From a virus: 32,136 nucleotides of DNA. The DNA lies in IMG/VR virus record IMGVR_UViG_3300021375_000103, positions 1 to 32,136 of that record. The stretch is one strand, 5' to 3'. Positions 23,308-25,467 of this stretch are shown here, in pieces. The notes beneath the pieces were generated by a model, which searched no databases, was not told where the DNA came from, and saw nothing but the letters and a program-made list of their open reading frames with translations. A program made the position numbers and the translations under genes. The first letter of the stretch is position 1; each line of letters starts with the position of its first letter.

Positions 23308-24063
23308 TCAAATCCTGGAATTGCATAAATTTATCTTATGTATTAATTTATCAAGTGGTCCTTCGTCGTTAGCATCGAACACTGCTCTAGCAAATCCTCT
23401 TGGCGTAGCAGACCTGATGTTCTTGGTTTTGGCAGACTTGCCACCTAATTTTAGGTGTTGTCGGCTATACCCTGCTTCAGGACACACTGGTCGCTTGCTA
23501 GGCTCATTGAAGCCACCACCAGACCAGATACCAGTCTTTTTGGGATACGCATCCCTAGGCGCAATATAGGTAGGGTACAGCGGATGTTCTGCCTCATCCA
23601 TATCTATATAACCGCCAAAATGCCAAGGGTGAAAGTAAAAGTTAGGCTTGCGCCACATTGTTGACAATCTGCCTACTGGATTTTCTACCATCCACGGCAC
23701 GTTCAAATCATCGGCAAACAATGCGATGCGTTGAGCATGGTTGACGGCTTCAATCTGAAAGTCCGGATTGATCTCCGCTTTCTTAGTCCAATGACACGCA
23801 CCAGAACCGGCTAAATCAGTGCACACAGGAAAGCCCATCACCAATGCTATATCGTCATCAGCGTGACGTTTTAGCAGTCTCTGCCACGTTATTTCGTCGT
23901 GCAGATCAGCCATCATGTAACGAATACACCCGCCAGAATCAAACAATTCGGTAGGCGTGAATCCGTCGTGCTGAATGTCATAAGCAAAGCATTCATATCC
24001 GGCTTCAGCCCAAGGTTTCAGGGCTTCGCCGGTGTAGTCGTAAAAAGATATAACTGTTTTCAT
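23308..24063 (-). CDS. DNA cytosine-methyltransferase-like protein (phage Dcm-like family)
   Basis: 251 residues. Features of a Rossmann SAM-dependent enzyme of the C5-methyltransferase type: N-terminal VISFYDYTGEALKPWAEAGYECFAYDI (motif I and II-like), MGFPVCTDLAGSGACHW at 76-92 where a PCQ-like catalytic motif IV is expected, and WMVENPVGRLS (motif VI ENP-like). A C-terminal KKTGIWSGGGF and GGKSAKTKNIRSATPRGFARAV follow. The PVC instead of PPC and ENP instead of ENV are unusual for canonical Dcm, but are seen in a phage-specific group. Activity is uncertain. It lies just after the hammerhead ribozyme. Confidence 0.75.
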   Translation of the reverse strand: MKTVISFYDYTGEALKPWAEAGYECFAYDIQHDGFTPTELFDSGGCIRYMMADLHDEITWQRLLKRHADDDIALVMGFPVCTDLAGSGACHWTKKAEINPDFQIEAVNHAQRIALFADDLNVPWMVENPVGRLSTMWRKPNFYFHPWHFGGYIDMDEAEHPLYPTYIAPRDAYPKKTGIWSGGGFNEPSKRPVCPEAGYSRQHLKLGGKSAKTKNIRSATPRGFARAVFDANDEGPLDKLIHKINLCNSRI

Positions 24064-24079
24064 TTATTTTCTCCAATTT

Positions 24080-24133
24080 AACCAGACCGTCTCACGACGG
24101 TTTCGCCTGAATCTCACAGGCTCATCAGTGATT
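24080..24133 (-). ncRNA. Hammerhead ribozyme (type I topology)
   Basis: Read on the minus strand: CTGATGA (24128-24122); stem II GCCTG/CAGGC (24121-24117, 24109-24105) with a 7-base loop; GAAA (24104-24101); stem III CCGTC/GACGG (24100-24096, 24091-24087) with a GTGA (GNRA) loop; then the cleavage triplet GTC (24087-24085). Stem I pairs 24129-24133 with 24084-24080 (5 bp, one G-U). Every core nucleotide of the hammerhead is present, including A15.1-U16.1. Both ends lie in stem I, so this is type I. Cleavage is predicted after 24085. The element fills the 70-base gap between two ORFs, and the upstream stop codon abuts stem I. Cleavage would leave a 21-base leader with GGAG before the methyltransferase-like start. 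Confidence 0.9.
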
Positions 24134-24322
24134 TTATATATCCCAGTATCCGACAAATTCATTTTCGTGGTCGTAAACCTCAATAAAAGCAAGGCTTTTA
24201 AGGGCGTCCCTAGCAACAAATCGCCATCCATCTTCAACGGGTTCGTTGCTGTTCAGCGCAAAAACAATATCAAGCGCTAAGGCTCTTTTATAGTAGCGTT
24301 TTTTATTTTCCATTAATGTCAT
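24134..24322 (-). CDS. Small hypothetical protein upstream of the hammerhead
   Basis: 62 residues from the ATG at 24322; a second ATG at 24313 is also possible. Basic N-terminus (MENKKRYYKRALALDIVFAL) followed by WRFVARDALKSLAFIEVYD and ending GYWDI. The stop codon (24134-24136) is next to the hammerhead's stem I, so ribosomes finishing this gene would disturb ribozyme folding. Function unknown. Confidence 0.65.
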   Translation of the reverse strand: MTLMENKKRYYKRALALDIVFALNSNEPVEDGWRFVARDALKSLAFIEVYDHENEFVGYWDI

Positions 24323-24586
24323 TTATGTCACCAATCCGTTGATAAACTCCTGTGATACCTCACGAACCTCAGTTTTTGCATCTACATTCCACTCACCACT
24401 AAAATATTTATTGATGTGGCGGGTTGTTGTGGGGCTGTAGTGAGTCGAAGTCTTGAAATGCCCTTTAACGCCGTCAGGATGCGCCGGATCAAATCCGGCT
24501 ACCGGCGTTTTATACGAAAATAAAACCGTTGTTCCGTCGCTCAGTTCAAGTTCAGTCATATTTGAAGCAATGTTTCTAAGTTTCAT
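24323..24586 (-). CDS. Conserved small phage protein (DUF8033-like)
   Basis: 87 residues from the ATG at 24586. The reading frame continues upstream to an ATG at 24643, giving a 19-residue extension that matches a repeated leader peptide (see 24587-24643). The body (TELELSDGTTVLFSYKTPVAGFDP, FKTSTHYSPTTTRHINKYFSGEW, SQEFINGLV) has the pattern S-Y-x-T-P-V-A-G and S-x-T-T-x-R-H-I-N-K-Y, which I associate with a widespread family of short phage/plasmid proteins of unknown function. The family name is given with moderate confidence. Confidence 0.78.
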   Translation of the reverse strand: MKLRNIASNMTELELSDGTTVLFSYKTPVAGFDPAHPDGVKGHFKTSTHYSPTTTRHINKYFSGEWNVDAKTEVREVSQEFINGLVT

Positions 24587-24643
24587 AATTTTAACCCTTA
24601 AATAAGTCATCCTGAATTGGATAACTTGCATAAAGGTAGGCAT
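24587..24643 (-). repeat. Leader repeat, copy 1 (upstream of the small protein gene at 24586)
   Basis: The 25-base segment 24612-24636 is identical to 25126-25150 except for one base, and the similarity extends to both sides. The repeats lie at the same distance from a start codon: 24636 to ATG 24586 and 25150 to ATG 25099. Read in frame on the minus strand, both encode nearly the same peptide: here MPTFMQVIQFRMTYLRVKI, joined in frame to the downstream ORF. Differences are mostly third-base or conservative, suggesting peptide-level selection. Confidence 0.85.
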
Positions 24644-24670
24644 TTTAAAGACTTACCTAGGTCAGTAAAA

Positions 24671-25099
24671 CTAGCAGTGATACTTGATTAACGCCCGCAT
24701 AGTATTGTCGTAAGCCGTTAACTCCACAACATCAGCGGATTTTAAACCGCTTTCATTGCTGGCGTCTACAAAAGAATCAAACTTGAACGGGTTGTATTTA
24801 GCAATACCGCTTTTATTTGATTCACTAATCAGCCTATCACTTGATAGCGGGTGGCGTAGATAACCGCTTACCCGTGCGTGCACGTTCTTTTTGCCAGTCT
24901 TTAAGACCTTTGAACGCCCTGCATTAGCAACCAAAAAATCAGCAAAGCACAGTGTTATGCTGTCAACGTGCGCCACAACCTTTCCAGATTGTTGCACTGA
25001 ATAACAATTTTTATGCAGATTGCGGTATACCTGTAACTTTTTATTAGTATCAAGTTTAACCGCAGTTCCGTCTAAATTACGTATTGTTAAATAACGCAT
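24671..25099 (-). CDS. Conserved phage protein (KxQVYRNLHK family)
   Basis: 142 residues. Recognisable conserved pattern KLQVYRNLHKNCYSVQQSGKVVAHVDSITL, then VANAGRSKVLKTGKKNVHARVSGYL and a C-terminal KYNPFKFDSFVDAS. This pattern (QVYRNLHKxCxSV...VVAHxDS...GRxxVLxxxxKNVHAxVxG) occurs in many phages and plasmids with no known function. It is the first large gene of the leftward operon, behind the structured leader. Its start is overlapped by an upstream ORF with a strong Shine-Dalgarno. Confidence 0.8.
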   Translation of the reverse strand: MRYLTIRNLDGTAVKLDTNKKLQVYRNLHKNCYSVQQSGKVVAHVDSITLCFADFLVANAGRSKVLKTGKKNVHARVSGYLRHPLSSDRLISESNKSGIAKYNPFKFDSFVDASNESGLKSADVVELTAYDNTMRALIKYHC

Positions 25100-25157
25100 A
25101 ATTGATTACCTTTAAACAAGTTAATCTGAATTGAATAACTTGCATAAAGGTGAGCAT
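25077..25157 (-). CDS. Upstream ORF / leader peptide with structured RBS
   Basis: 26 codons beginning MLTFMQVIQFRLTCLKVINY and ending FNNT, overlapping the start of the next gene by 23 bases in another frame. GGGAG lies 6 bases before its ATG. The ATG is in the 3' arm of a hairpin (TGAGCAT 25176-25170 with ATGCTCA 25157-25151), and the Shine-Dalgarno is in the loop. A near-identical peptide is encoded at 24643-24587. Probably a regulatory leader peptide, by inference. Confidence 0.5.
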   Translation of the reverse strand: MLTFMQVIQFRLTCLKVINYALFNNT

Positions 25158-25467
25158 TTGTTCTCCCTCATGCTCAGGAGGGGCGCAAGCCACACATAAA
25201 CCACGGTCTTATGCTTTACCTTGCTTCAACTTCGCCATGATGTAATCGCCTATTAAAAACCCTGACATTTGCGGTACGTGCTGTTATCCCGTGGGATAAC
25301 TCCGCTTTGATCAGGTCTGGAATTTAATCTATCGGAACCTATGCTGTTTTGATGTGCTTAAGGCGGATACCGATTAATAAACTTTCGATCAGAATCAGGA
25401 AAGAATCTAGCGATGGTGTAACCTTAACTTCAGGTTTTTTTCACGGGTCCTTCGGACCGTAGATTCT
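25151..25467 (-). ncRNA. Highly structured leader RNA of the leftward operon
   Basis: Between the minus-strand promoter and the first genes lie stacked complementary segments (plus coordinates). An 8-bp stem AGAATCTA 25402-25409 with 25460-25467 encloses two hairpins: 25420-25424/25432-25436, and GGTCC 25446-25450/25454-25458 with a TTC loop. ATCGG 25331-25335 pairs with 25370-25374. A three-part stacked helix comprises 25261-25265/25311-25315, 25271-25274/25302-25305 and 25283-25289/25294-25300. Another comprises 25182-25185/25233-25236, 25186-25189/25220-25223 and 25195-25199/25209-25213. The last is 25151-25157/25170-25176. No long ORF occupies the region. No known RNA family was recognised. 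Strand is inferred from the promoter and uORF. Confidence 0.6.

Follow-up and report, generated by a model that had tools for sequence, protein, structure and literature searches.

The window, which is the whole stretch of DNA analysed (32,136 nt), encodes a complete type I hammerhead ribozyme (HHR) at 24133-24080 on the minus strand, recognised from the sequence and with our own descriptor. The element is homologous to a large set of phage HHRs in which stems I and III covary strongly. It follows a placement rule that recurs across that set, in which the ribozyme lies flush with the stop codon of the upstream gene and a translatable leader is kept downstream. We conclude that the window HHR is an ordinary member of a known phage-linked hammerhead group, and that it probably acts as a self-cleaving, intercistronic mRNA-processing site in the early/replication operon of the phage.

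Anatomy of the ribozyme and genomic setting

The features of the junction are listed in Table 1. The catalytic core is complete (CUGAUGA, GAAA and UC). Around it are three helices of 5, 5 and 5 bp, plus the A15.1-U16.1 pair; stem I is open and stems II and III are closed by loops. This is the arrangement of a type I hammerhead, as are the conserved core elements CUGANGA, GAAA, UH and A15.1-U16.1, all of which are present. The original prediction, which described the core, the three stems, the type I permutation, the GNRA loop and the minus-strand orientation, was correct to the base. An A outside stem I is conserved on both sides in relatives of the HHR, as are bases of loop II, and these conserved bases suggest a possible tertiary contact between loop II and the stem I flank. 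From homology to the hammerhead class, self-cleavage probably takes place 3' of C17, between 24085 and 24084.

Table 1. Features of the hammerhead junction, in transcript order on the minus strand.
Feature	Position	Strand	Basis or comment
62-aa ORF, upstream	24134..24322	-	no family match; relative only in near-identical contig
Stop codon UAA of 62-aa ORF; its final A is the conserved unpaired base next to stem I	24134..24136	-	many non-redundant phage HHRs share this register
Type I hammerhead ribozyme, whole	24080..24133	-	own descriptor; models R1 77.5 bits, R2 51.6 bits
Stem I 5' strand AAUCA	24129..24133	-	partner strand 24084-24080; covariation at each of the five stem I pairs in relatives
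Catalytic core CUGAUGA (C3 to A9)	24122..24128	-	sequence; columns invariant in relatives except position 7
Stem II GCCUG/CAGGC, 7-nt loop UGAGAUU	24105..24121	-	sequence; stem-loop shared with HHRs from many other contigs
G12 A13 A14 and A15.1 (GAAA)	24101..24104	-	sequence
Stem III CCGUC/GACGG, GUGA (GNRA) tetraloop	24087..24100	-	sequence; covariation in relatives
U16.1 (24086) and C17 (24085); predicted cleavage 24085/24084	24085..24086	-	homology to hammerhead class
Stem I 3' strand UGGUU, which would begin the downstream cleavage product	24080..24084	-	sequence; covaries with 24133-24129 in relatives
21-nt leader of predicted downstream product, GGAG at 24074-24071	24064..24084	-	sequence; compared with typical leader lengths
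Phage DNA methyltransferase (phrog_757), downstream	23308..24063	-	E 2.5e-68; relatives in 1485 phage records

The window derives from a 32 kb IMG/VR virus contig, the plus strand of which carries genes for terminase, portal, scaffold and capsid proteins. The minus strand carries a replication and nucleotide-metabolism module with genes for a DnaB-like helicase, an exonuclease, a ribonucleotide reductase and the DNA methyltransferase (phrog_757). This module surrounds the HHR and bears out the proposed setting in a phage replication operon. The ribozyme occupies a 70-nt intergenic gap between the 62-aa ORF and the methyltransferase gene. The UAA stop of the 62-aa ORF directly adjoins stem I (register 0), and GGAG is found 7 nt ahead of the AUG at 24063. 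The gap of 70 bases, the leader of 21 bases, the GGAG before the AUG and the contact between stop codon and stem I had all been predicted, and all check. The gene layout also agrees with the claim that the predicted cut would part the mRNA of the 62-aa gene from that of the methyltransferase. Promoters and terminators predicted in the gap were as numerous as in shuffled sequences, and none was located at the HHR.

Some further features of the window were noted. The UAA and the two core UGA triplets share one frame (24136-24122, UAA AAU CAC UGA UGA), giving the 62-aa ORF three successive stops; this register recurs in many relatives. A direct repeat of 52-63 nt (82-85% identical, minus strand) is present at 24584-24645 and 25097-25159, where it precedes or overlaps the starts of two successive small genes. 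Copies matching this repeat also occur in L003, the contig of the nearest relative, and the sequence could serve as a repeated leader or a regulatory element. Also present, between 29635 and 31065, are direct repeats of 49 and 67 nt (82-84% identity, spacings of 910 and 904 nt), which point to duplication of a pair of genes in the tail region.

Covariance models, Rfam and folding

Two covariance models were built from HHRs of other contigs: R1 from 10 that share the stem II of the window, and R2 from 24 with different stem II and loop sequences. R1 scores the window HHR at 77.5 bits (E 2.9e-22), a result that is partly circular, because the search pattern that set stem II was itself taken from the window. 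R2 scores it at 51.6 bits (E 1.9e-12) and finds no second match in the 32-kb window. The E-values of both models are rough because calibration was shortened. In 257 Gb of contigs from bacteria and archaea, a general HHR pattern (core plus closing pairs) has 6 matching stretches, versus at least 119 in viral contigs. A hammerhead scoring 53 bits with R1 was identified at L216:7593-7658, in a contig binned as a Thermoplasmata archaeon that may be an archaeal virus or provirus.

A search of Rfam had been proposed as a check on the element. At gathering thresholds it reports no hammerhead in the window. The best match at relaxed E-values is RAGATH-1-hammerhead (RF03152), with 24.8 bits and E 0.05, below the gathering score of 56.3. 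The core, stem III and AU-rich 5' flank of that family align with the window HHR, whereas nothing in the window HHR truly corresponds to the 5' hairpin of the model. Hammerhead_3 (RF00008, 21.2 bits) has the core and stem II in common with the window HHR, but it is of the type III permutation, and the alignment breaks most of the pairs in its stems I and III. Rfam at gathering thresholds likewise reports no hammerhead in ten HHR-rich loci (L043, L049, L061, L064, L067, L095, L097, L129, L141 and L156), in which our descriptor finds more than 20. Given these descriptor matches, we attribute the silence of Rfam on the ten loci to its thresholds.

Stems II and III form in thermodynamic folding (RNAfold z = -1.66, weak evidence alone), and the energy of the full HHR fold equals the MFE, -17.3 kcal/mol. 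With flanking mRNA added, several other folds emerge, and we count these against the processing reading.

Covariation among relatives

The original prediction had named a lack of stem covariation among related phages as one of the grounds for rejecting the ribozyme. Covariation is present at the level of the ribozyme family; at the locus itself the only other copy is 99.8% identical. Relatives for the stem I test were collected with a pattern that leaves stem I free. At positions 1-5 of stem I, 157 of 160 cells are paired, whereas shuffles average 15 to 23 of 32 at each position; every one of the five shows 3-4 pair types. Position 6 pairs in only 2 of 32. In alignment A2, compensatory changes affect every one of the five pairs of stem I and three pairs of stem III. 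All three stems vary in alignment A3, with two-sided changes in 117 cells versus 31 in shuffles. In these alignments stems I and III are paired in 99.4-99.5% of cells, with compensatory changes.

Placement of phage hammerheads relative to stop and start codons

The location and coupling of the window HHR had been considered unusual. This does not hold: the stop-HHR-start arrangement recurs across phage contigs, and in 104 of 307 HHRs with enough flank, among the matches listed, the upstream stop codon falls on the base next to stem I (registers 0 or -1). The survey covers 321 non-redundant phage HHRs among the matches listed, found with the descriptor and selected by core patterns, with ORFs and stops taken from a crude ORF rule rather than a gene caller. 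In a first set, among the matches listed, 49 of 102 HHRs have a stop 2 to 7 nt ahead of C3, versus 27 of 626 non-HHR control CUGANGA sites. For an independent set from two later scans, again among the matches listed, a stop lies 3 to 8 nt before C3 in 79/181 HHRs versus 34/1173 controls. The 95 upstream genes at HHR junctions among the matches listed fall into 82 clusters and are mostly mutually unrelated; therefore the placement is not one inherited junction. Several hammerheads may share a contig. L341, L043, L049 and L347 have three to six within a few kb, one per gene junction, and L341 has five HHR pattern matches in 4.3 kb.

At 115 junctions among the matches listed, the upstream stop and the downstream ribosome-binding site and start could both be measured. 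The median spacing from stop to stem I is 0, versus 16 nt from stem I to the ribosome-binding site (Wilcoxon p 3.5e-17). This asymmetry rejects symmetric compaction as the sole cause of stop phasing; a requirement for leader length downstream can still explain it. The leader from cut to start at these junctions has a median of 32 nt and a 5th percentile of 22.7 nt, which is what a need to translate the cut mRNA would predict. Among the 307 HHRs, a start codon typically lies 27-40 nt beyond the cut. The window fits the stop-phased group, with UAA in register 0 and a start within 20-60 nt of the predicted cut. Its leader is at the short end of the range among phage HHRs. The setting of the HHR against the stop, while a translatable leader is kept, agrees with in vivo cleavage and with intercistronic processing, and gating by a terminating ribosome would fit it as well.

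The unpaired base outside stem I is A in 138/181 HHRs on the 5' side and 150/181 on the 3' side, among the matches listed. Register 0 stops are UAA (21) or UGA (6), with no UAG, versus 17 UAG, 6 UAA and 3 UGA in register -1 (Fisher p 1e-7; among the matches listed), an association that is partly definitional, as a paired G shifts the register. Stop choice thus follows register: UAA or UGA where the last base borders the stem, mostly UAG where the G pairs into it. UGA is rarer at HHR stops than in long ORFs of the same contigs (16/104 versus 521/1294, among the matches listed). The bordering A of the HHR is usually supplied by the upstream stop codon. The base is still A in 88 of the 128 HHRs without a stop codon there (among the matches listed). 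A purely structural need for UAA is unsupported, as HHRs without a stop mostly keep the A and not the whole triplet.

Probable transcript processing and possible translational gating

Intercistronic processing is the most likely role of the element, with translational gating as a possible addition. The transcript would fold into the hammerhead and cut at the predicted site. The upstream product would end, after the stop of the 62-aa gene, in the two stable hairpins of the ribozyme, with a 2',3'-cyclic phosphate. The downstream product would have a 5'-OH and a 21-nt leader with the GGAG ribosome-binding site of the methyltransferase. The two genes would be uncoupled, with separate mRNA ends, separate stability and no hand-over of ribosomes from the upstream gene. 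Both a 5'-OH and a 3' hairpin can stabilise RNA. We infer that the element is catalytic in vitro and in vivo, and that cleavage affects stability and translation.

The ribozyme could, in addition, be gated by translation. The footprint of a ribosome is large enough for one terminating at the UAA to cover stem I and the core, so that cleavage would occur only where the upstream ORF is not being finished. The HHR would then sense upstream translation and decide whether the downstream gene stays linked. The phasing of HHRs to stops in the independent set, the asymmetry of spacing at the 115 junctions and the exact stop register of the window all speak for such gating. However, the same phasing would arise if the HHR merely begins at the coding end and spare space is kept downstream for the leader, and the conserved A that the stop supplies beside stem I is a structural reason for the register. 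The exact stop phasing is consistent with translation gating the folding of the ribozyme and is not proof of it. We consider gating possible but rather doubtful.

Evolution at the locus

An HHR at this exact locus is known from one genotype, represented by the window and a 99.8% identical contig. The nearest relative is L003, with about 88% DNA identity; the flanking genes are the same there, but both the ribozyme and the 62-aa ORF are missing. Between these genes L003 encodes two other small ORFs, and the stop runs straight into the methyltransferase start (UAAAUG). The 62-aa ORF and HHR, about 255 bp, are replaced in L003, and homology resumes at the methyltransferase start codon. Because L003 carries different small ORFs and no ribozyme between the same genes, the 62-aa ORF plus HHR looks like an exchangeable cassette. 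As L003 is without the ribozyme, the methyltransferase does not need the HHR.

The R1 search found an HHR in 0/33 contigs with a related methyltransferase, and the R2 search in 0/80 loci with relatives of two neighbouring genes. Conservation of the HHR together with the methyltransferase or neighbouring genes is thus rejected. No relatives of the 62-aa ORF were found except in the near-identical contig, and a blastn search for the same HHR in cultured phages gave only short, chance-level matches. The restriction to one genotype, the ribozyme-free L003 locus and the lack of an HHR in the 33 contigs and 80 loci searched count against the processing reading.

These observations bear on whether the HHR is a decayed or selfish passenger that arrived with the small ORF as an exchangeable cassette, is useless to the phage and cuts with perhaps neutral effect. 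The swap of about 255 bp in L003 is what such a passenger would leave, the flanking ORFs are small and poorly conserved, and HHRs beside small non-conserved ORFs are noted in PMC6155905. However, the core is perfect and both covarying stems are fully paired. Leader length is also kept across unrelated phages, which is not required of a passenger. We therefore regard this explanation as unlikely.

A chance match, or a hairpin pair with another function (terminator or coding segment) that resembles a hammerhead, is very improbable and is refuted in practice by the R1 and R2 matches: the modest RNAfold z, the lack of an Rfam match at gathering thresholds and a 57-codon open frame crossing the HHR (TTG start, 24237-24064) stand against the E-value from the independent model R2, the recurrence of the element, with compensatory changes, in many contigs where the genes on either side are unrelated, and the lack of any predicted terminator-like site at the HHR.

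Relation to known hammerheads

Two papers describe comparable elements. HHRs flank single genes in prophages, several per region, and a role in phage transcript processing has been proposed (PMC3088659; Perreault et al., 2011). Of the 18 consensus HHRs tested in that study, 14 cleaved in vitro, and those of an A. tumefaciens prophage cleaved when transcribed in E. coli. According to De la Pena and colleagues (PMC6155905), hammerheads in prokaryotes are often found next to small non-conserved ORFs and are phage-linked, with roles described as unknown. The window HHR has the same core, three stems and permutation as these bacterial, prophage and phage type I HHRs. Like them, it is found beside a small ORF in phage-like DNA, and some of its relatives also occur several per contig. 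We see no difference in kind; exact stop phasing is not described in the available portions of these sources.

A close parallel is HHphage of the haloviruses HF1/HF2, an HHR that precedes the start codon of an early helicase gene by 13 nt (PMC3088659). The window is similar in that its hammerhead likewise lies a short way ahead of the start codon of an early replication gene (21 nt from the cut, against 13 nt for HHphage). The 5' end of the HF1/HF2 early transcript was mapped within 3 nt of the HHR cut and so agrees with cleavage. HHphage has a two-base core insertion and an archaeal host, whereas the core of the window HHR is consensus.

Significance

The presence of HHRs beside phage genes was already known from the papers cited. 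The stop-codon phasing rule in hundreds of phage HHRs, among the matches listed, may be new; we found no published description of it in the open-access literature, where subscription papers are mostly missing. The phage HHR group is probably under-annotated in phage genomes, because Rfam thresholds miss it at the ten loci searched. PMC6155905 treats the function of phage and prokaryotic hammerheads as an open question. The placement rule (flush with the stop, leader mostly 27-40 nt) makes both mRNA processing and translational gating directly testable. We suggest, tentatively and as a less than likely case, that there is a widespread class of phage HHRs in which the upstream stop is part of the ribozyme: its A would be the conserved base bordering stem I, stop choice would depend on register, and a terminating ribosome would compete with folding. 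If this is true, translation termination would set when the mRNA is cut.
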